Assembly: GCF_021044585.1 (NCBI RefSeq)
Contig: NZ_CP087998.1
Span: 2,294,001 to 2,358,000 of the forward strand
Origin: Sulfurimonas sp. HSL-3221
GTDB lineage: Bacteria; Campylobacterota; Campylobacteria; Campylobacterales; Sulfurimonadaceae
Reading direction: 5' to 3'
DNA length: 64,000 bases
The notes under the pieces were generated by a model. The model was not told the DNA's origin, did not search any database, and saw only the letters and a list, made by a program, of their open reading frames with translations. Of the stretch, positions 36,050-50,365 are shown piece after piece. The position numbers were made by a program, and so were the translations under genes. Position 1 is the stretch's first letter, and the number at the start of each line of letters is the position of its first letter.

Positions 36050-37747
36050 CTACCCTCCGGTCGGTCCATCATGGCAGTCGTAGCAACCGACCGCATCGCC
36101 TGCCTTGTAATAGACTTTATCCGATCCGAACGTCCGCTCGGAGAAAGCCCTGGAGAGGAAGCTTCCCCGGTAATCGCTGCCGTGGCAAGCCGTGCACTGC
36201 GTCGCATTGCTGTCGGCGACCGGCCCGTGCTGCATGATCCATTCGCGCCCGATATTATGCATGCCGTGGGGACCGCCGGCATCGGTCCGGGGCATCGTGT
36301 CATGGCAGGCCGTACATTCGGCGATGGTGCCCTCGTGCCCCTGGACCGTGAGGCTCTGGATGTTATCCTCCGTATGCGCACTCGGGTAGATGGCGTGGGT
36401 CGAACCGTGGCAGGCCGAACACTGCATGTCGCCGTGGCCCGCGCTGAAGCGGTAGAGGCTTACCCCCGACGCCGGCGTGTTCGGGTTCGTCGCAAAACGG
36501 GTATCGAGCGCCGCACGCAGCCTCCCCGTCTGCATATCCGTCACCGCCGTCTCATACCGCTTGCCGTCCTGGTGGCAGGCCTGGCAGTTGGGCTCTTCGA
36601 GCCAGCCGTTGCGGCCGTGTGTTCCGACGGCGCTCATGCTGCCGTGACAGCTCTGGCACTGGATATTGCTCTGCTTGCCCATCGCGCCGCGCAGACACTT
36701 CGTCGCCGCACCCGGGTGGCAGCGGTAGCAGGCGTCCCGGTTTGTCGAGCTGTCCAGCGTCATGCCGTTGGTCGGGTCCTTGACCCTTCCATGCAGACCA
36801 TGGATCACCTCCGTCAGCGGTTTGACACCGTCAACCCCCGTCCCCGGCAGGGCGTTGCTGCTATGGCAGGTGGCACAAAGAACGGGATTGCCGTTTTTCG
36901 CCGTCGTATAGAGCCCGGTGTCGTCATACCCTTTGTAACCGGCCGCCTGCAATGCCGACTGGTGCTCCGACACTGCCGTAGGGAACTTCTCGTCGTGCAG
37001 TCGCAGGATGTTCCATTTGAAATCCTTCTCCGCATCGGTGTCGAACTCCCACCCCCCTACGGGGCGCGCCGCCGATGTGCCACTCACTGATCCGTGACAG
37101 GCCCGGCAATCCATCTCGTCACTGACCGGCAGCACGACCGTCGTTGTTGCCAAAACAATGCCCGTACTATCTTTAGCCGCCACCTTGACCATCGGGTAGT
37201 AGTTCTTGCTGCCGTCGTCATTGTAGGGTGTCAGCGGCAACCCCGTCGCCTCCCACCACTGCATCGCACCGTTATAGCTGAGGTTGTGTGCTGCCAGCTC
37301 CGGGGTGTGGTTTCCCGTCAGACCTGTATCGGGGTCCGGATGGGCGTTGAACAGTACGCCGACGAAATCCCAGAAATTGGTTTTGGCTTGATTATGGCTG
37401 TTATAGAGACTGGTCGTATTGTATTTGCCGTCCAGCGACGCGATGGCGCTGTAGGTGATCGTAACCCCGGTTGTGACGTGTTTTCCCGACGTCCCCGCCT
37501 TTTGGATCAGTTGGGCGTTCAGGTTGTTATAGGGCGGCAGGATGGAAAAGACGGAAAAATCCTTCCCGTCCATACAGTGCATCCCCAGGTCGTTCCACGC
37601 CAGCAGTGTGTAATCACCGCTGTTCCCGACACCCGAGGCGGCGATCGCCGCTGCTGCATCCGCCTCGTTCGTGCTGCCGCTTCCCCCGCCGCAGCCGATC
37701 AATAGCAGTGCCATTCCCGCTGCAGCGATCTCTTTTGCGTATCGCAT
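36050..37747 (-). CDS. Nine-heme c-type cytochrome lipoprotein, paralogue 1
   Basis: The 565-residue product has a lipobox LLLIGC (Cys19) and nine CXXCH motifs: CRACH, CATCH, CYRCH, CQSCH, CQACH, CSACH, CTACH, CTACH and CYDCH. An N-terminal domain with LLAWNDLGMHCMDGKDFSVFS (about 46-68) and a beta-rich region precede the first heme, which lies at about residue 215. I do not know the function of that N-terminal domain. It is likely a periplasmic electron carrier held in a membrane. It is one of three paralogues, separated from the other two by the alpha operon. Its promoter has a -10 and a degenerate regulatory box. Confidence 0.9.
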   Translation of the reverse strand: MRYAKEIAAAGMALLLIGCGGGSGSTNEADAAAAIAASGVGNSGDYTLLAWNDLGMHCMDGKDFSVFSILPPYNNLNAQLIQKAGTSGKHVTTGVTITYSAIASLDGKYNTTSLYNSHNQAKTNFWDFVGVLFNAHPDPDTGLTGNHTPELAAHNLSYNGAMQWWEATGLPLTPYNDDGSKNYYPMVKVAAKDSTGIVLATTTVVLPVSDEMDCRACHGSVSGTSAARPVGGWEFDTDAEKDFKWNILRLHDEKFPTAVSEHQSALQAAGYKGYDDTGLYTTAKNGNPVLCATCHSSNALPGTGVDGVKPLTEVIHGLHGRVKDPTNGMTLDSSTNRDACYRCHPGAATKCLRGAMGKQSNIQCQSCHGSMSAVGTHGRNGWLEEPNCQACHQDGKRYETAVTDMQTGRLRAALDTRFATNPNTPASGVSLYRFSAGHGDMQCSACHGSTHAIYPSAHTEDNIQSLTVQGHEGTIAECTACHDTMPRTDAGGPHGMHNIGREWIMQHGPVADSNATQCTACHGSDYRGSFLSRAFSERTFGSDKVYYKAGDAVGCYDCHDGPTGG

Positions 37748-37775: not shown

Positions 37776-37781
37776 ATTATA
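37776..37781 (-). promoter_or_regulatory. -10 element of cytochrome 1
   Basis: TATAAT on the minus strand, 28 nt before the start codon and exactly 10 nt from the proximal half of the regulatory box. Confidence 0.65.
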
Positions 37782-37791
37782 TGAGGGGTTC

Positions 37792-37808
37792 ATGAAGATT
37801 TGGCCTAT
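37792..37808 (-). promoter_or_regulatory. PhoB-like box upstream of cytochrome 1
   Basis: In gene direction this reads ATAGGC-CAAAT-CTTCAT. The proximal half is the CTTCAT repeat seen at cytochromes 2 and 3; the distal half is degenerate. Distance to the -10 is 10 nt. Confidence 0.55.
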
Positions 37809-42332: not shown

Positions 42333-44039
42333 TCAATCCCCGCCGGGACCGTTGTGGCAGTCGTAGCAGCTGACCGCGTGACCGGCGGGGAAGGTCTTCG
42401 TCCCACCCTCGGTGCTGAAGCTGCGCGCCGAGAAGGTCTTGGAGAGGAAACTGCCGCGGTAATCGCTGCCGTGGCAGACAGCGCACTGTGCGCGGTTGCC
42501 TTCGGCGGCATGCTCATGCGCACCCACCCAATACTGTCCGACGCTGTGCATGCCGTGCGGACCGCCGCTGGTCGTTGCCGGTACCGTCTCATGGCAGGCC
42601 GTACATTCGGCAATCGTCCCCGCATGCCCCTGTACGGCAATACTCTGAAGGTTATCCTCGGTATGCGAGCTCGGGTAGATGGCATGGGTCGAGCCGTGGC
42701 AGGCCGAACACTGCATCTCGCCGTGACCCGCGCTGAAACGGTAAAGGCTGATGCCCGCCGCCGGCGTATTGGCATTGGTCGCGAAACGGGTGTCGAGCGC
42801 TGCACGTAGCGTCCCCGTCTGCATATCCGTCACCGCCGTGTCGTAGCGCATGCCGTTTTGGTGGCACGCCTGGCAGTTAGGCTCTTCCAGCCAACCGACC
42901 CTGCCGTGCTGTCCGACGGCGTTCATACTGCCGTGACAGCTCTGGCACTGGATACTGCTGATCTTGCCCATGGCCCCGCGCAGACACTTCGTCGTCGCGC
43001 CCGGGTGGCAGCGGTAACAGGCGTCGCGGTTCGTCGAGCTGTTCAGCGGCTGGCCGTTCACCGGATCTTTGACCTCGGCATGCAGGGAGTGCAGCGCCTC
43101 GGTCAGCGGTTTCGTCCCGCTCACCCCTGCTGTCCCCAGGGCATTGGTACTGTGGCAGGTGGCGCAGAGCACCGGGTTGCCGTTCTTGGCCGTCGTATAG
43201 AGCCCCGCATCGTCATAAGACATGTAACCCGCAGCCTGTAGTTCCGCCTGGTGCGCGCTCACCGCCGTCGGATGCTCCTCATCGTGCAGCCGCAAAATAT
43301 TCCATTTGAAATCCTTTTCCGGATCGGCATCGTTCTCCCATCCGGATGAAGGCATCGCCTCGCTATAACCGCTAGCCGAACCGTGGCAGGCGCGGCAGTC
43401 CATCTCGTCGCTGACCGGCAGCACGACTCTTGTCGTCGCCAGGACGTTCCCCGATCCGTCCTTTGCGACCACGTCCACCATAGGATAGTAGTTCTTGCTG
43501 CCGTCATCGTTGTACGGTGTGATCGGTAGCCCCGTCGCTTCCCACCAATTTTCCCCTGCATTGTAATGCAGCGTATGCTCGGTCATCTCCGGCGTATGGT
43601 AGCCCGTCAGTCCGACATCCGGAGCAGGGTTCGCAAGAAAGAGTGTGCCCACGTAGTCCCAGAAGTTCGTCTTGAGATTGTTGCGATCGTCATAGACGCT
43701 CGTCGTATTGTATTGCCCGTCCAGCGACGGTGCTGCTGCATAGGTGATTGTGACCCCCGAGGTCACATGCTTTTCGCCGCCGTCAGCTTTCATGATCAAC
43801 TGCGCATTGAGCGTATTGTAGGGCGGCAGGATCGAAAAGACCGAAAAGTCCTTCCCGTCCATGCAGTGCATCCCCAGATCGTTCCAGGCCAGGAGCGTAT
43901 AAGCGGCCGTCTTCGTACCGCCACTTCCGCCTATGCCTTTTTTGCCTCTGTGCCCATCGCCTTTCGCATTGGCCCCCGTTGCCACAGCGCAGGCCAAAGC
44001 CACGCACACGACACCGGCAAGTACTCTTTTGCCTTTCAT
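42333..44039 (-). CDS. Nine-heme c-type cytochrome, soluble form, paralogue 2
   Basis: The 568-residue protein shares the nine CXXCH motifs with paralogues 1 and 3 (CRACH, CATCH, CYRCH, CQSCH, CQACH, CSACH, CTACH, CAVCH and CYDCH). Its signal peptide ends ATGANA followed by KGDGHRGKKG and no lipobox, so it is probably a soluble periplasmic form. The mature N-terminus is Gly/Lys-rich. The conserved domain LLAWNDLGMHCMDGKDFSVFS follows. AAGGAG with 7-nt spacing supports ATG 44039; the frame opens at 44057. It carries the best-spaced box and -10. Confidence 0.9.
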   Translation of the reverse strand: MKGKRVLAGVVCVALACAVATGANAKGDGHRGKKGIGGSGGTKTAAYTLLAWNDLGMHCMDGKDFSVFSILPPYNTLNAQLIMKADGGEKHVTSGVTITYAAAPSLDGQYNTTSVYDDRNNLKTNFWDYVGTLFLANPAPDVGLTGYHTPEMTEHTLHYNAGENWWEATGLPITPYNDDGSKNYYPMVDVVAKDGSGNVLATTRVVLPVSDEMDCRACHGSASGYSEAMPSSGWENDADPEKDFKWNILRLHDEEHPTAVSAHQAELQAAGYMSYDDAGLYTTAKNGNPVLCATCHSTNALGTAGVSGTKPLTEALHSLHAEVKDPVNGQPLNSSTNRDACYRCHPGATTKCLRGAMGKISSIQCQSCHGSMNAVGQHGRVGWLEEPNCQACHQNGMRYDTAVTDMQTGTLRAALDTRFATNANTPAAGISLYRFSAGHGEMQCSACHGSTHAIYPSSHTEDNLQSIAVQGHAGTIAECTACHETVPATTSGGPHGMHSVGQYWVGAHEHAAEGNRAQCAVCHGSDYRGSFLSKTFSARSFSTEGGTKTFPAGHAVSCYDCHNGPGGD

Positions 44040-44068: not shown

Positions 44069-44074
44069 ATTATG
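44069..44074 (-). promoter_or_regulatory. -10 element of cytochrome 2
   Basis: CATAAT on the minus strand, 29 nt before the start codon and exactly 10 nt after the regulatory box. Confidence 0.6.
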
Positions 44075-44084
44075 AAAAAAAGTT

Positions 44085-44101
44085 ATGAAGATTGGATGAA
44101 G
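44085..44101 (-). promoter_or_regulatory. PhoB-like direct-repeat box upstream of cytochrome 2
   Basis: In gene direction CTTCAT-CCAAT-CTTCAT: two identical hexamers 11 nt apart, then 10 nt to the -10. The layout replaces the -35 region, as in OmpR/PhoB-class activation. Confidence 0.7.
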
Positions 44102-44182: not shown

Positions 44183-45901
44183 TCAATCCCCTCCGGGACC
44201 GTTGTGGCAGTCGTAGCAGCTGACCTCGTGGCCGGCGGCGAATGTCTTCGTTCCCCGCTCGGTGCTGAAACTGCGGGCCGAGAAGGTCTTGGAAAGGAAA
44301 CTGCCGCGGTAGTCGCTGCCGTGGCAGACGGTACACTGGGCACGGTTCCTTTCGGCGACGCCTTCATGCGCGCTCACCCAATACTGGCCGACGCTGTGCA
44401 TACCGTGCGGCCCTTCAGCCGTTGTCTTCGGCATCGTGTCATGGCAAGCCGTACATTCGGCGATGGTGCCCTCGTGCCCCTGTACCGCGATGCTCTGAAG
44501 ATTATCCTCCGTATGCGCACTCGGATAGATGGCGTGGGTCGAACCGTGGCAGGCCGAACACTGCATGTCCCCGTGGCCCGCGCTGAAGCGGTAGAGGCTT
44601 ACCCCAGACGCCGGCGTGTTCTGGTTCGTCGCAAAACGGGTATCGAGCGCCGCACGCAGCGTCCCCGTCTGCATATCCGTCACCGCTGTTTCATACCGCT
44701 TCCCATCCTGGTGGCAGGCCTGGCAGTTTGGCTCTTCCAGCCAGCCGTTGCGGCCATGCGTTCCGACGGCGCTCATGCTGCCATGACAGCTCTGGCACTG
44801 AATGTTCGCCTGTTTGCCCATCGCACCGCGCAGACACTTCGTCGCCGCCCCCGGGTGGCAGCGGTAGCAGGCGTCCCGGTTCGTCGAGCTGTTCAGGCTC
44901 AACCCGTTCACCGGATCTTTGACCTCGGCATGCAGGGAGTGCAGCGCCTCGGTCAGCGGTTTCGTCCCGCTCACACCCGCCGTCCCCAGCGCGTTGGTGC
45001 TGTGGCAGGTGGCGCAGAGCACTGGGTTGTTGTTCTGCGCCGTCGCCTCCAGGCCGGCACTGTCATATCCGTTATAGCCGGCCGCTTGCAGTTCGGACTG
45101 ATGCGCGCTGACTGCCGTCGGATGCTCCTGGTCGTGCAGCCGCAGAATATTCCATTTGTAATCTTTCTCCGGGTCGGCGTCGTTGGCCCAGCCTGCATTC
45201 GGCATTGCCGCCGTATAACCGCTTGTCGAACCGTGGCAGGCGCGGCAGTCCATCTCGTCGCTGACCGGCAGCACGACCTTGGTCGTCGCCAACACGTTCC
45301 CCGACGCATCCTTCGCCGTCACATCCACCATCGGATAGTAGTTCTTGCTCCCGTCGTCGTTATAGGGGGTAATAGGGAGGCCCGTCGCCTCCCACCACTG
45401 CTCCGCCGCGTTATAACTCAGTGTATGTCCGGTCAATTCAGGGGTATGATTGCCCGTTACTCCCGTGTCCGGTGCGGGTGTCGCGTTGAAAAGTGCTCCC
45501 ACATAATCCCAGAAGTTCGTCTTCAGGTCATTACTGTCGGTATAGACGCTCGTCGTATTGTACTTCCCGTCCAGCGACGGGGCGGCGGTATAGGTAATCG
45601 TCACCCCGCCTGTCACATGCTTATCGGATGTCCCCGCCCGCTTGATCAGCTGGGCGTTCAGATTGTTATAAGGCGGCAGGATGGAGAAGACGGAAAAATC
45701 CTTTCCGTCCATGCAGTGCATCCCCAGATCGTTCCAGGCCAGTAGCGTGTAATCGGCCACCGTACCGTTCCAGGTCGTTCCTCCTCCGCTGATATCACCG
45801 ACGACCTCACTATCGCCCTCGGTTGTCGCCATCTGGCATCCTCCCAGCCAAACGGCTGCGATAACTACACTCGCTGTCTTCCGCCAAAGTTGCGTTTCCA
45901 T
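44183..45901 (-). CDS. Nine-heme c-type cytochrome lipoprotein, paralogue 3
   Basis: The 572-residue product has the lipobox VWLGGC and the nine motifs CRACH, CATCH, CYRCH, CQSCH, CQACH, CSACH, CTACH, CTVCH and CYDCH. Its middle section (around CQSCH to CSACH) is nearly identical to paralogue 1, whereas its C-terminal end follows paralogue 2, so it looks like a mosaic. The ATG at 45901 has GAGGAG with 6-nt spacing; the first ATG at 45907 would touch the ribosome site. It lies divergent from the response-regulator gene. Confidence 0.9.
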   Translation of the reverse strand: METQLWRKTASVVIAAVWLGGCQMATTEGDSEVVGDISGGGTTWNGTVADYTLLAWNDLGMHCMDGKDFSVFSILPPYNNLNAQLIKRAGTSDKHVTGGVTITYTAAPSLDGKYNTTSVYTDSNDLKTNFWDYVGALFNATPAPDTGVTGNHTPELTGHTLSYNAAEQWWEATGLPITPYNDDGSKNYYPMVDVTAKDASGNVLATTKVVLPVSDEMDCRACHGSTSGYTAAMPNAGWANDADPEKDYKWNILRLHDQEHPTAVSAHQSELQAAGYNGYDSAGLEATAQNNNPVLCATCHSTNALGTAGVSGTKPLTEALHSLHAEVKDPVNGLSLNSSTNRDACYRCHPGAATKCLRGAMGKQANIQCQSCHGSMSAVGTHGRNGWLEEPNCQACHQDGKRYETAVTDMQTGTLRAALDTRFATNQNTPASGVSLYRFSAGHGDMQCSACHGSTHAIYPSAHTEDNLQSIAVQGHEGTIAECTACHDTMPKTTAEGPHGMHSVGQYWVSAHEGVAERNRAQCTVCHGSDYRGSFLSKTFSARSFSTERGTKTFAAGHEVSCYDCHNGPGGD

Positions 45902-45954
45902 CTTCATCTCCTCTCATCACTGGGGGAAGCCCCCCGACATTTTTCTCCACTGCC

Positions 45955-45960
45955 AGTATG
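45955..45960 (-). promoter_or_regulatory. -10 element of cytochrome 3
   Basis: CATACT on the minus strand, exactly 10 nt beyond the box. It is a weaker match than the other two, which fits dependence on an activator. Confidence 0.5.
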
Positions 45961-45970
45961 GAACAACTGT

Positions 45971-45987
45971 ATGAAGATTTGATGAAG
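45971..45987 (-). promoter_or_regulatory. PhoB-like box between cytochrome 3 and the response regulator
   Basis: In the cytochrome 3 direction it reads CTTCAT-CAAAT-CTTCAT, the perfect 11-nt direct repeat. It lies between two divergent genes, so it could also affect the response regulator's own promoter. Confidence 0.72.
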
Positions 45988-46003
45988 GGTTACCAACCCC
46001 TTG

Positions 46004-46036: not shown

Positions 46037-46699
46037 GTGGATATCTTGATTGTCGAAGACGAACCCGTTGTGGCCCGGCAGCTTGAGGAGACCCTGCACC
46101 AAGAGGCGTACAAAACCGTTGCCGCCGGCAGCGTCGCCGCAGCCAAACACGCCATGCAGGAGCAGAACTTCGACCTTATCCTTCTGGACTGGAACCTCCC
46201 CGACGGCGACGGCATCACACTGCTGCACGACTGGCGGTCGCAGAAAATCTGCATTCCCGTCCTCGTCCTTTCAGCCAATATCACCGTCGATGACCGGGTG
46301 CATGCCCTCAATGCCGGCGCCGACGACTACCTGTGCAAACCCCACTCGAGCATCGAACTGCTTGCACGTGTCCGCGCCCTGCTGCGCCGGGACGCCCCGC
46401 TCAAAAGCTCCAAGCTGAGTGCCGAGGATGTCATCGTCGATATTATTGCAAGGGAGGTGGGCGTCGCCGGTGCTCCTGTCAAACTCAGTCTGGCCGAGTT
46501 CGACCTGCTGACGCTGCTGATGCAGCACCAGGGCATCGTCCTGACGCGCTTCCAGCTCAACGAACACATCAGCAAGGATTTCGACCGGATCTCGGTCAGC
46601 AACCTGATCGATGTCCACATCCGAAATATCCGCAAAAAGCTTGACCGCCCGGAACTGATCCAGACCGTCCGCGGCGTCGGCTATACCATTAAAACATAA
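46037..46699 (+). CDS. OmpR/PhoB-family response regulator
   Basis: The 220-residue protein has a receiver domain with DILIVEDEP, phospho-accepting Asp51 (LLDWNLPDG) and KP near residue 101, then a winged-helix DNA-binding domain (about 125-220: LSLAEFDLLTLLMQHQGIVLTR, SVSNLIDVHIRNIRKKL, TVRGVGYTIKT). OmpR-class proteins bind 11-nt direct repeats like those found upstream of the cytochromes. The GTG start at 46037 has AAGGAGG; the TTG at 46001 is inside the promoter. The partner kinase is at 46892-48928, convergent. Confidence 0.9.
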   Translation: MDILIVEDEPVVARQLEETLHQEAYKTVAAGSVAAAKHAMQEQNFDLILLDWNLPDGDGITLLHDWRSQKICIPVLVLSANITVDDRVHALNAGADDYLCKPHSSIELLARVRALLRRDAPLKSSKLSAEDVIVDIIAREVGVAGAPVKLSLAEFDLLTLLMQHQGIVLTRFQLNEHISKDFDRISVSNLIDVHIRNIRKKLDRPELIQTVRGVGYTIKT

Positions 46700-46705
46700 C
46701 GGCAT

Positions 46706-46720
46706 CCGGGCAAAGCCCGG
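46706..46720 (+). terminator. Short GC hairpin after the response regulator
   Basis: CCGGGC-AAA-GCCCGG forms a 6-bp stem 7 nt past the stop. There is no T run, so it may only stabilise the 3' end. Confidence 0.35.
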
Positions 46721-46810
46721 CTCCCTACGCTAACGCTGTGTTCCCCTCGGTGGTGGGCCCACACTCCAAGAGCACTTCTGTCAGGGCGTGCGCAGATGAA
46801 CCGCGCTGTT
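46720..46810. repeat. Intergenic dispersed repeat, copy B
   Basis: This spacer repeats, in the same order, two blocks seen at 26690-26790 (CTACGCTaACGCTGTGT at 46725 and GCGCAGATgAACCGCGCTG at 46790). It has no coding frame. The remaining 46811-46891 shows nothing I recognise. Confidence 0.55.
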
Positions 46811-46891
46811 TCCATGACAATGCGGTATCCGGGCAAAACAAGGGTACCGTTCGCATAGCGATGTTTCCCGAAAACAGCCGAAAATCGTACG

Positions 46892-48928
46892 CTACAGCGT
46901 CGTCAAACAGAGCCGCGCCGTACTTCCCATACCCACTCCGTCGCTGGAGAGCGTCAGTTCCGCACCGATATGCTGGGCATAGCGCCGGCTCAGGGCCAGT
47001 CCCAGGCCGCTGCCGCCGCGTACCCGATCCGTCTCCTCCGACTGTACAAAAGGTTCAAAGACATGCTTCAGCGTCTCGGCCGTCATCCCCCGTCCGGTGT
47101 CCTGTACCCGGAGGCAGAGGACCGACTCCGTCGTATCGAACCGGCAAGAGACGCTGCCGCTGTCGGTGAATTTCACGGCATTGGAGAGCAGATTGAGGAT
47201 GATCTGCCGCAGGAAACGGCGGTCGGCGACCACGGTCGCGTCCGGCACGGACGCCGGCAGCAGGAGTGCCACCCCTTTTTGCTCCGCCAGGGGGGCGAGC
47301 AGTGTGCCCACCTCATCGAACATCTCGCCGATCTCCGCCGTCTGGAGGGTTTCGAGCTCCGGCTCGTACTTTCCGGCATCCAGCCGCGCCAGGTCCAGCA
47401 GATCGTTTACCATCCCCAGCAGCTGCTGGGCGGCATGCTCAATCCCCCCGATGCGTTCAAGCGCGCCCGCTTCCAGTTTTCCGTAGCCGACCAGGAACTG
47501 GGTCTGGGACAAGATGGCATGCAGCGGAGTCCGCAGGTCGTGGGAGAGATGGGAGATGAACGCCGTTTTCGCCGCCGAGTCTCGGCGCAACCGGTTATAG
47601 GCGCGGATCTGCCCGATCCGTGCCGCGATCATCGAAGCGACGGCACGGAAAAACGCCTGCTCCTCCTCCGCCAACCCTTCGGGCAGGATAAGCGAACCGT
47701 AGTATTTGAGCGTTTCATGCTCGAAGTCGTACACAAAGAGCGTCGGCATCGCTTTTGCCGCCCCGGCACGGGCGAACCGCACATTGTACTCGGGGGCAAG
47801 CATTTTCAGTTCGGAGAGGGCCGTTTTCAGGCAGGCGCTCTCCTCTTCAGTCTCCATCAGGCGGTGGAAAAGGGCGATCATCTGCGTCAGACGCTGCAGA
47901 CGGAAAACGTTCTCCCGTTCCAGCGCTTCGAAGGCGCGGCGGATATCCTCCGCCATCGCGTTGAACGCCTGCGCCAGCTGCCCGATCTCATCCGTGCGGC
48001 CGCTGTCGACCGGGAGACTGTACTGGCGGGTCCGCACCATATCCGATGCCTGGCGCTGCAGCGCCCCGAGCGGTGCGACGATACGGCGGGAGAACCAGAA
48101 AGCCGCCGCGGCGATCACCCCGACGCCGAAGATCAGCATCAGGCTCAATAGACGGTTCAGGTCACCGATCAGCGAGCGCTGAAGCGCCCGGTCCAGGTGG
48201 TAGACCACGTACCAGCCCGCCAATTGCGGCGCCAGCGAGCGGTAGAGCCAAAGTGTGCGCTTCTTCTCCACCACGCCCTTGAGCCCTTCCGCCTTGAAGG
48301 GGGGCATCGTCCCCCCGATGGTGCTGCCTGTTTCCGTATTGATAAAGAAGCTCGATGCCGGGGCGCCCTCAAGATTGAAACGCTGCAGGTTCGCGGTTTT
48401 GTACTCCATCACCAGGTAGCCGATCACCCGCTCCGCCCCCAAAGCCGCGTGCACCGGGACCTCCAGCAGCAGAAGTCCGTCATCCGCCTGGACGGGTGCA
48501 CTCTGTCCCACGGCACGCTCGAAGGCGCGATAGCGGGCGTAGGGCTTCCCCGTCAGCGCCACATCGGTCGCGGCGACAACACGGCCGTTGAGCCCCAGCG
48601 CCAACAGAGTGATGTCCAGATCATATACCCCCTTGTAACGCTCCAGCAGGGATGCCACCCGTCGGTCGAGGTCGCTGATCAGCAGGTCGTCCATCACGAC
48701 CGAACCGGCCAGAAAGTGCAACTCCCGGTAGAGCTGCTCGATATGATGCTCGACATCCGAGACGACCTGCGCCATTCTCCCCTGATGCTCATCGTAGAAA
48801 TGCTCCGTATAGAGCTTCTCCTCACTCACGAGCGTATAGGCGAGGATCGCCGCATACGGCACCACGCCGATCAGAAAGATCAGCAGCAGCAGCTTCGCAG
48901 CCATATGCCGCCGGATCCAGCCGATCAC
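46892..48928 (-). CDS. Sensor histidine kinase
   Basis: The 678-residue protein has two membrane helices (about 12-32 and 258-281) around a periplasmic sensor of about 225 residues, a HAMP linker (about 282-335), a coiled coil and GAF-like segment (about 350-450), a HisKA domain with LSHDLRTPLHAI (His463), and an ATPase with LLSNAVKFTDSG and GSGLGLALSRRYA. It has no receiver. It is coupled by 4 nt to the PstS-like gene upstream, which suggests that the periplasmic protein feeds it a signal. It probably phosphorylates the OmpR-type regulator at 46037-46699; they are convergent neighbours. Confidence 0.88.
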   Translation of the reverse strand: MIGWIRRHMAAKLLLLIFLIGVVPYAAILAYTLVSEEKLYTEHFYDEHQGRMAQVVSDVEHHIEQLYRELHFLAGSVVMDDLLISDLDRRVASLLERYKGVYDLDITLLALGLNGRVVAATDVALTGKPYARYRAFERAVGQSAPVQADDGLLLLEVPVHAALGAERVIGYLVMEYKTANLQRFNLEGAPASSFFINTETGSTIGGTMPPFKAEGLKGVVEKKRTLWLYRSLAPQLAGWYVVYHLDRALQRSLIGDLNRLLSLMLIFGVGVIAAAAFWFSRRIVAPLGALQRQASDMVRTRQYSLPVDSGRTDEIGQLAQAFNAMAEDIRRAFEALERENVFRLQRLTQMIALFHRLMETEEESACLKTALSELKMLAPEYNVRFARAGAAKAMPTLFVYDFEHETLKYYGSLILPEGLAEEEQAFFRAVASMIAARIGQIRAYNRLRRDSAAKTAFISHLSHDLRTPLHAILSQTQFLVGYGKLEAGALERIGGIEHAAQQLLGMVNDLLDLARLDAGKYEPELETLQTAEIGEMFDEVGTLLAPLAEQKGVALLLPASVPDATVVADRRFLRQIILNLLSNAVKFTDSGSVSCRFDTTESVLCLRVQDTGRGMTAETLKHVFEPFVQSEETDRVRGGSGLGLALSRRYAQHIGAELTLSSDGVGMGSTARLCLTTL

Positions 48929-49344
48929 TGCGATGTCCCCGCTTCATAATGCAGTACGGTGACATTCGCATCCACCGCCATGGCGTAGGGGATGTAGCCC
49001 ACGGCGCCCTCCACCTGCTGTACGTAGGCCAGGACCGCTTCGGCGGAACCCACGACCTTCGGCGGCCGCTGACCGAGGTAGTGGCGCCGGATCCACCACT
49101 CCCGCAGCGCCGCACGGGAAAGCTTCAGTGTCTCCCCTTCGAACTGTTGGCGCAGCGGATCCTCCGCCCCCAGCTGCAGCGGGAAAAGCCGTACGTCTCT
49201 GACGTAACGAATTTTACCGAGGTAGACATCCCGTATCTGTGCCGCGCTCAACGAATCAAGGGGGGAATCGGCACGGATAACCAGGGCCCACTCCTCGGCG
49301 TTAAGCGCTAGGGAGAGGAGCAGCATCAGTACCGGTTTCACCAT
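48925..49344 (-). CDS. PstS-like periplasmic substrate-binding protein, short form
   Basis: The 139-residue protein has a signal peptide (MVKPVLMLLLSLALNAEE) and a short type-2 periplasmic-binding fold: SAAQIRDVYLGKIRYVRDVRLFPLQ, then FEGETLKLSRAALREWWIRRHYLGQRPPKVVGSAEAVLAYVQQVEGAVGYI. This pattern matches PstS/phosphate-binding proteins but is half the length of a transport protein and has no ABC partners nearby. It is coupled to the kinase and to the porin. A sensory adaptor for an oxyanion is likely, by inference. ATG 49344 has AGGA upstream at 8 nt. Confidence 0.78.
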   Translation of the reverse strand: MVKPVLMLLLSLALNAEEWALVIRADSPLDSLSAAQIRDVYLGKIRYVRDVRLFPLQLGAEDPLRQQFEGETLKLSRAALREWWIRRHYLGQRPPKVVGSAEAVLAYVQQVEGAVGYIPYAMAVDANVTVLHYEAGTSQ

Positions 49345-49354
49345 CGTACGCATC

Positions 49355-50365
49355 CTAGAAGAGCATCGAGAACGACACAATCATGACGTCCTCGTTCTCC
49401 CGGGTATGAAACTGGTACTCCCCTTTGAACGCCACGGGGAAAAGCGGACGGTAGGTATACCCCACAACAGTGACCATGTCGTCGGAATTGGCGATATAGT
49501 CCGTTGTGTACTCCAGACGCAGTACCGCGTAATGGTGTTCGCGGATCTGCCGGGTTCCCTGGAGATACCCACCCGCATTGCTGCGCGTATTGTCATCGTT
49601 GCGCCGGTAGCCGGCTTCGGCCATGATCCTGGTCAGCGCCGTACGGTACTGGCCCGATACATACAGGTAGCCCCACGCCTCCTCTTCGACCCGTTCCTCG
49701 TAACGCCCGGCGTTTACACCGCACGACCAGGCCCCCCGTTCGCCGATGACACCGATCCCGCTCTGGCGCTCGATATCGAAGTTGTTATAGAGGTTGTCGC
49801 CGTTAAACGCCGCGTCCAGGTCCTTCGTGACCTGCATCAGGACATTGACGCTGACCGCTCCCGCCGTGATCTTGGCATCGATCCCCGTCGTAAAGCGGGG
49901 GAAGATCTTCTCGGTGATGCTGGGACTGGAGGTCGTATCGCGCAGGACATTGATCGGCATCCGGTTCCAGTAGCCGACCGGCGTATTGAACTTCCCGACC
50001 GTCACCTGCAGCCGTTCGGAAGGTTCGTACTGGAGGTAGACGCGCTCCGTATGGGGGGTGCCGTCGAAATCGGTCTGGGCATCGTACCCGTAGCGCCTCC
50101 GGTACAGATCGCCCCACTCGATCTCCGCCAGGCCGCTCCACGCTCCCTTTGTACCGTACAACATGACGGCCAGATCATCGAGACTGATCTCGCTTGATCC
50201 TTTGAAGTTGTTCCAGTAGGCCAGGGAGGAGTACCCGCCGAGATAGAGCGGCGTTTTGCCGACCTGTACCCCTTCGCCGAGACGGTATTCGTCCGCTGCC
50301 GCCCCCGACAGTGTCATTAATGCCAGAAGCCCCGCGGTCCAAACCCGTCTCATCATCTTCATCAT
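49355..50365 (-). CDS. Outer-membrane porin-like protein
   Basis: The 336-residue protein has a signal peptide (cut near AAA-DEY), alternating aromatic beta strands and a C-terminal Phe (VSFSMLF), fitting an outer-membrane barrel of about 16 strands. Segments like QVTVGKFNTPVGYWNRMPINVLRD resemble OprO/P- or DcaP-like anion porins but I do not assign one. It heads the unit porin-PstS-like-kinase. A TATAAT stands only 5 nt before the start, which would give an almost leaderless message. Confidence 0.75.
   Translation of the reverse strand: MMKMMRRVWTAGLLALMTLSGAAADEYRLGEGVQVGKTPLYLGGYSSLAYWNNFKGSSEISLDDLAVMLYGTKGAWSGLAEIEWGDLYRRRYGYDAQTDFDGTPHTERVYLQYEPSERLQVTVGKFNTPVGYWNRMPINVLRDTTSSPSITEKIFPRFTTGIDAKITAGAVSVNVLMQVTKDLDAAFNGDNLYNNFDIERQSGIGVIGERGAWSCGVNAGRYEERVEEEAWGYLYVSGQYRTALTRIMAEAGYRRNDDNTRSNAGGYLQGTRQIREHHYAVLRLEYTTDYIANSDDMVTVVGYTYRPLFPVAFKGEYQFHTRENEDVMIVSFSMLF

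Follow-up and report, generated by a model that had tools for sequence, protein, structure and literature searches.

Gene Organization of the Locus

The DNA analyzed here, a stretch of 64,000 nucleotides referred to as the window, belongs to a Campylobacterales genome of 2.52 Mb on a single contig. As shown in Table 1, a response regulator, a sensor histidine kinase, a short secreted protein resembling PstS and a porin are encoded next to a 9-heme cytochrome, cytochrome A, and two paralogous cytochromes, B and C, are encoded nearby. The four genes named in the first-pass annotation are thus borne out by the open reading frames and the domain searches. The gene coordinates also agree with its statement that the regulator is convergent with the kinase unit and adjoins a cytochrome: the regulator gene and the porin/PstS-like/kinase unit lie tail to tail on opposite strands, and the regulator gene is divergent from the gene of cytochrome A.

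The genes of the unit had further been described as coupled by short overlaps. This is true of the kinase and PstS-like genes, where the GTG start of the former overlaps the stop codon of the latter by 4 bp. At the porin/PstS-like junction it depends on the start codon, with a 1-bp gap for the likely ATG at 49353 and a 26-bp overlap for the TTG at 49380. As had been remarked, no ABC-transporter gene, including pstCAB, occurs among the module neighbours annotated with Pfam, and no oxyanion reductase gene was found beside the module.

Table 1. Positions of the genes and putative control elements of the module and of the 9-heme cytochromes in the window.
Feature	Position	Strand	Evidence and remarks
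Response regulator	46037..46699	+	OmpR/PhoB-type; PF00072 (receiver), E 5e-27; PF00486 (Trans_reg_C winged helix), E 4e-20
Sensor histidine kinase	46892..48928	-	Periplasmic dCache-like domain (predicted), HAMP, HisKA, HATPase
One-lobed PstS-like secreted protein, ~142 aa with signal peptide	48925..49353	-	Profile match, AF2 model, Foldseek
Outer-membrane beta-barrel porin, 336 aa, ends in F	49355..50365	-	Heads the three-gene unit
Cytochrome A, 9-heme lipoprotein	44183..45907	-	9 CXXCH, lipobox; PF22113 MtrC/MtrF, E 2.5e-13
Cytochrome B, 9-heme paralogue	42333..44039	-	9 CXXCH; PF22113, E 1.9e-14
Cytochrome C, 9-heme paralogue, lipoprotein	36050..37747	-	9 CXXCH; 76% identical to cytochrome A
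Putative operator of cytochrome A, CTTCATCAAATCTTCAT	45971..45987	-	Conserved in other genera
-10 hexamer of cytochrome A, CATACT	45955..45960	-	10 bp after operator
Putative operator of cytochrome B, CTTCATCCAATCTTCAT	44085..44101	-	
-10 hexamer of cytochrome B, CATAAT	44069..44074	-	10 bp after operator
Degenerate operator of cytochrome C, CTTCATGAACCCCTCAT	37781..37797	-	3 mismatches, poor -10

One-Lobed Relative of PstS

No Pfam or NCBIfam family was found for the PstS-like protein of the window, and 32 relatives were likewise without a Pfam family. The match of the single protein to TIGR02136 was below the threshold (E = 0.001), and the profile of its family finds a PstS of known structure, 4exl, with E = 5e-6. 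The AlphaFold (AF2) model (pLDDT 93) has the alpha/beta lobe fold of PstS, and its best Foldseek matches are all PstS, with E values down to 7e-7 (4exl) and TM scores of 0.62-0.65 over the query. Judged from the profile and the model, the kinship to PstS is real but remote. The protein had been described as about half of the normal length; it is in fact under half as long as the genome's own full-length PstS, which is encoded elsewhere in a frame of 344-349 aa, beside a cluster of PhoU-, PhoB- and kinase-like genes that was assigned by inspection of the sequences and by gene order.

The match spans one lobe of PstS, and the second lobe, with which a two-lobed pocket would be formed, is absent. 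In the profile alignment, residues 60, 64, 65 and 66 of the window protein are aligned with Arg135, Ser139, Gly140 and Thr141 of PstS, which we take to be the phosphate ligands of the E. coli protein. Across the family, these columns hold mostly Leu, Asp/Asn, Pro or variable residues, and Leu, respectively, so that the phosphate ligands are not kept.

These results bear on the proposal of the first-pass annotation that an oxyanion may induce the cytochromes. In such a mechanism, the PstS-like protein would bind phosphate, arsenate, selenate or another anion and report it to the kinase, as AioX/ArrX do, or TorT in the case of TMAO, and there is a precedent for the control of a redox enzyme by anion-sensing binding proteins (PMC5908839). 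The fold relationship to PstS would fit, as would the porin family, whose members match the profiles of phosphate-selective porins (PF07396 Porin_O_P and PF07642 BBP2) weakly, and to whose profile no related solved structure was found. However, in type II binding proteins the ligand sits between the two lobes, and because the ligand positions are replaced and the other lobe is missing here, the similarity to PstS provides no argument for anion sensing. The absence of an oxyanion reductase gene beside the module and the separate Pho locus, which is without the operator described below, also stand against it. Oxyanion sensing is thus unlikely, and this part of the earlier reading is not supported; the PstS-like protein is probably a periplasmic adaptor or sensor.

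Close relatives of the PstS-like protein were found at two loci in the collection scan, the named relatives being a Campylobacterales MAG and a Sulfuricurvum MAG, and the comparison therefore rests on whole-genome searches, which covered Campylobacterota and were centred on the relatives of the window. In a phylum-wide sample, the PstS-like family was present in 26 of 298 genomes, which belong to the family of the window and to four other families of the order.

Sensor Cassette and Exchange of Outputs

Within the family of the window, 76 of the 121 genomes contain the PstS-like gene. A porin of the same type is encoded directly upstream of it at almost every locus examined, and a membrane transducer is encoded downstream, sometimes after a stand-alone receiver or a receiver-HD-GYP protein. 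For the 62 loci with labelled outputs, examples of which were verified by Pfam, the output is a histidine kinase (39 loci), an HD-GYP domain (16), an adenylate/guanylate cyclase (3), a GGDEF domain (3) or a chemoreceptor (1), and the tree of the PstS-like proteins requires at least six changes of output type. The kinase, HD-GYP and cyclase transducers have a periplasmic domain in common, with the near-invariant stretch FLxxxxxMDDxxxxDxDxR. The GGDEF and chemoreceptor versions are distant and have different porins and different sensor domains.

The modelled residues 1-340 of the window kinase (pLDDT 86) have dCache sensor domains among their best Foldseek matches; the Pfam match to dCache_1 is weak for this kinase (E 0.013) and clearer for its relatives. 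The best-conserved residues of the sensor are confined to a single stretch of the kinase, residues 72-95, which is predicted to be helical. The kinase-type sensor domain occurs 89 times in the genomes of the family, 76 times at no more than 2.5 kb from a PstS-like gene, in line with the earlier view of the four genes as a sensory module.

It is conceivable that the kinase senses a small molecule by its dCache domain alone and that the porin and the PstS-like protein only aid ligand entry or are structural companions. Direct binding of ligands is usual for dCache domains, and this fold is predicted here. In addition, the cytochrome, regulator and kinase genes lie together without adjoining porin and PstS-like genes at four loci (L088, L089, L094 and L095), an arrangement which means either that there is no strict need for the porin and the PstS-like protein or that they act in trans. 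The genomes in question carry another PstS-like gene elsewhere, and the partner may act from another locus. Against the kinase acting alone, the porin and PstS-like genes accompany the sensor domain even where the output is an HD-GYP domain or an adenylate cyclase, and the confinement of the conserved residues to one helical stretch would suit a docking site more than a ligand pocket. We regard sensing by the kinase alone as rather doubtful, and a role of the porin, the PstS-like protein or both in signalling is preferred.

Two further observations concern the arrangement of the cassette. The sensors of the four loci mentioned above retain the conserved stretch in the form FLS..EVMNDM...DMDRR. 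At seven loci (L036, L042, L070, L076, L098, L106 and L114), the gene of a receiver-HD-GYP protein stands between those of the PstS-like protein and the kinase; here, a single module seems to act both on a DNA-binding regulator and on the turnover of cyclic-di-GMP.

Linkage of the Module to 9-Heme Cytochromes

Of the 121 genomes in the family, 37 encode a 9-heme cytochrome. In 21 of these 37 genomes, the distance from the cytochrome to the sensor domain or the PstS-like gene is at most 7 kb, compared to 0.34 expected by chance, where kinship is ignored in the expectation and the linkage spans several families. In the other 16 genomes, module and cytochrome are unlinked; the operator is nevertheless kept at some of these cytochromes. 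The block of the porin-PstS-like-kinase unit, the convergent regulator and the divergent 9-heme cytochrome occurs in many Campylobacterales genera of four families, three of which are represented outside the family of the window by loci L117, L118 and L121. As for the cytochromes themselves, the lipobox is clear in A and C and uncertain in B, and no close relative of the 9-heme cytochrome has been found among solved structures.

Wide occurrence of the gene set without cytochromes had been named in advance as an observation that would speak against the earlier reading. The porin-PstS-like-transducer cassette is indeed common without them, the outputs then being HD-GYP or cyclase domains, but the loci that have a kinase and a regulator are the ones tied to cytochromes and other extracytoplasmic redox genes.

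As a separate observation, prepilin-like (GFTLIEL) and GspE/GspF-like genes were seen by inspection of the sequences near the cytochrome or the kinase/regulator pair at loci L041, L049, L050, L078, L090 and L100. They possibly represent a type II secretion route for the cytochromes.

Putative Operator and Promoter Geometry

The upstream regions of the cytochrome genes have the sequence TTCAT-N6-TTCAT in common, which is an 11-bp direct repeat. Its strict form, TTCATNNAATCTTCAT, occurs twice in the window, before cytochromes A and B, compared to 0.06 expected. With at most one mismatch and within 200 bp upstream, the operator was found for 24 of 26 regulator-linked cytochromes versus 44 of 955 other genes (5%). 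Each of four complete genomes of the genus contains exactly three copies of the strict form, two before cytochromes and one before a lipoprotein gene, and the reversed control pattern was never found in these four genomes.

At a distance of 10 bp after the repeat, a -10-like hexamer is recognized by A at +12 and T at +16 in 38 of 41 operators before heme-protein genes, compared to 0-14 at other offsets. Because the -10 element was not used in the selection of sites, this geometry independently supports a promoter with the operator in the position of the -35 box. The cytochrome-linked regulators of other genera belong to the same clade as the window regulator, with the receiver motif LLDW[NM]LxDG and the recognition helix SNxxDVHxKNxRKKL as its signature. 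On these sequence patterns, the TTCAT repeat is probably the operator of the regulator.

PhoB sites are likewise 11-bp direct repeats that replace the -35 box. The layout of the TTCAT repeats matches this style, and they could in principle belong to PhoB or another regulator, while the neighbouring two-component system controls something else. This explanation is very improbable, as the TTCAT site follows the present regulator clade into other families, and G044, a genome without cytochromes, has no strict site. The identification of the operator as a Pho box was rejected, since the pst/pho locus of the genome contains no site with fewer than two mismatches.

The synteny in four families, the linkage far above chance, and the operator and promoter upstream of the cytochromes make the link of the module to cytochromes, which had been proposed from the window alone, much stronger than the earlier reader could know.

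Between the operator of cytochrome A and the TATAAT of the regulator gene, an inverted repeat, GGGTTACCAACCCC, lies at 45985-46000 of the window and is retained in the closest relatives (L054-L056) as GGTTGGTAACCC/GGTTGGCAACCC. This repeat may serve the control of the regulator itself.

Other Candidate Targets

The third strict site of the present genome lies 48 bp before the likely start of the gene of an Asp-rich repeat lipoprotein (G000:C1:288976-289945; L128:1501-2469). The lipoprotein and the site are kept in the other complete genomes of the genus, and an apparent homologue, recognized by eye from the shared stretch GTVPGTLIEA, adjoins the regulator at L108 and also has the operator. The Asp-rich lipoprotein is a probable member of the regulon.

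The operator was also found before a thioredoxin-DUF4266-DUF3570-ApbE cluster, upstream of the thioredoxin gene, at L061:9770-12442, where the cluster was confirmed by Pfam, and at L105:10288-12967, where it was identified by inspection of the sequence. Both clusters adjoin the porin-PstS-like-kinase unit. This gene cluster is an extracytosolic flavinylation system (PMC8238504). Lipoproteins with 3 to 4 hemes are preceded by the operator at L066, L067 and L110. At L066, L105 and L110, a regulator of the same clade is encoded upstream of the target genes, and the porin-PstS-like-kinase unit is present as well.

Outside these loci, a gene of the di-haem cytochrome c peroxidase family (PF03150) at G000:C1:2380.5-2381.9 kb (L133:237-1516) is preceded at a distance of about 44 bp by a looser TTCAT repeat, TTCATTATTTTTTCAT, and is a possible further target.

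Proposed Mechanism

In our judgment, the four genes probably form an envelope-spanning two-component system that activates the 9-heme cytochromes through the TTCAT operator. The porin, the one-lobed PstS-like protein or both would register a cue that arises in or close to the outer membrane or periplasm, and the signal would then be handed to the kinase at its periplasmic domain of the dCache type, where contact between the PstS-like protein, the porin and the kinase is assumed. The kinase would phosphorylate the OmpR/PhoB-type regulator. We infer that the regulator binds the TTCAT operator and acts as an activator: it would bind the pair of 11-bp direct repeats, YTTCAT-N5-YTTCAT, which substitute for the -35 box and are followed after 10 bp by the -10 hexamer, and would activate the 9-heme cytochromes A and B of the outer-membrane type, possibly also C, and the distant lipoprotein gene. 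This reading draws on what can be recognized at the level of the sequence, namely the genes, their synteny and linkage, the operator with its promoter spacing, the predicted sensor folds and the exchange of outputs.

The porin-PstS-like-sensor part would be a reusable front end, with other outputs, such as HD-GYP domains and adenylate cyclase, in related genomes. Because the same front end serves HD-GYP and cyclase outputs, its cue is probably of general value at the cell surface, electron transfer being one use. The cassette is best regarded as a general front end for sensing at the envelope, with one branch devoted to the control of extracytoplasmic electron-transfer genes; the kinase form most likely controls such proteins through the TTCAT operator.

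With less assurance, we lean towards the broader view that this is a new sensory cassette of Campylobacterota, in which a porin and a one-lobed relative of PstS relay an outer-membrane or periplasmic cue to a dCache-type transducer, and the output has been swapped repeatedly among histidine kinase, HD-GYP phosphodiesterase and adenylate cyclase, and distantly GGDEF and chemoreceptor. Its kinase form would then be the master switch, with its own operator, for extracytoplasmic electron transfer in these bacteria, the genes concerned being those of 9-heme cytochromes, small multi-heme lipoproteins and ApbE/DUF3570 flavinylation clusters.

With the operator defined and the promoter geometry fixed, members of the regulon can be predicted in related genomes. 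The shared operator gives the Asp-rich lipoprotein and the DUF3570/DUF4266 clusters a common context, and its presence at the flavinylation clusters links this regulator clade to extracytosolic flavinylation. The cassette also suggests that half of a binding protein can be a signalling part without classical ligand binding.

Comparison with Known Systems

Nothing direct was found in the literature on the module, on the combination of a PstS-like protein, diguanylate cyclase and porin, or on cytochrome control in Campylobacterota, nor was a paper found on the control of extracellular or extracytoplasmic electron-transfer proteins in chemolithotrophic members of the phylum. A sulfur transcriptome of Sulfurovum mentions two-component genes and OprD-like porins, and the present set is not named there (PMC10045233). 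Three-component systems with a binding protein are already known as AioXSR, TorTSR and LuxPQ (PMC5908839); a one-lobed member, an accompanying porin or an exchange of outputs was not found described in the open-access literature.

The present locus resembles such systems in that a secreted binding-protein-like gene lies beside a regulator gene and a kinase gene with a periplasmic sensor domain, and it has a single lobe in place of the two-lobed binding protein. In the arsenic three-component systems AioX-AioS-AioR and ArxXSR/ArrXSR, too, the genes of a periplasmic protein of the PstS/PhnD structural class, a sensor kinase and a regulator adjoin that of the redox enzyme under their control, whereas such control is a prediction for the present module. 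AioX is bilobed, with 304 aa and a defined anion pocket (PMC5908839). By contrast, the PstS-like protein of the module is a single lobe in which the PstS ligands are replaced, the unit includes a porin, the regulator is of OmpR type and the predicted targets are multi-heme cytochromes. TorT-TorS-TorR and LuxP-LuxQ likewise use a binding-protein-like adaptor for the kinase, the former controlling anaerobic respiration and the latter other genes. As binding proteins, TorT and LuxP are of full length and differ from the AioX class in both structure and phylogeny (PMC5908839), and their units, in contrast to the module, include no porin.

PstS itself has the fold of one lobe in common with the module's protein, which is without the second lobe, the phosphate ligands and an adjoining ABC transporter. 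The cytochromes A-C resemble the OmcA/MtrC type in their multiple hemes, in the match to PF22113 above the cut-off (A and B) and in the lipoprotein signal (A and C), and differ in having 9 hemes and no close solved relative; the porin of 336 aa is presumably too short for an MtrB-type barrel. In its general layout, the module is comparable to YfiB-YfiR-YfiN, where an outer-membrane part and a small periplasmic protein act with an inner-membrane transducer, although the families are unrelated, YfiB being no porin and YfiR not PstS-like.
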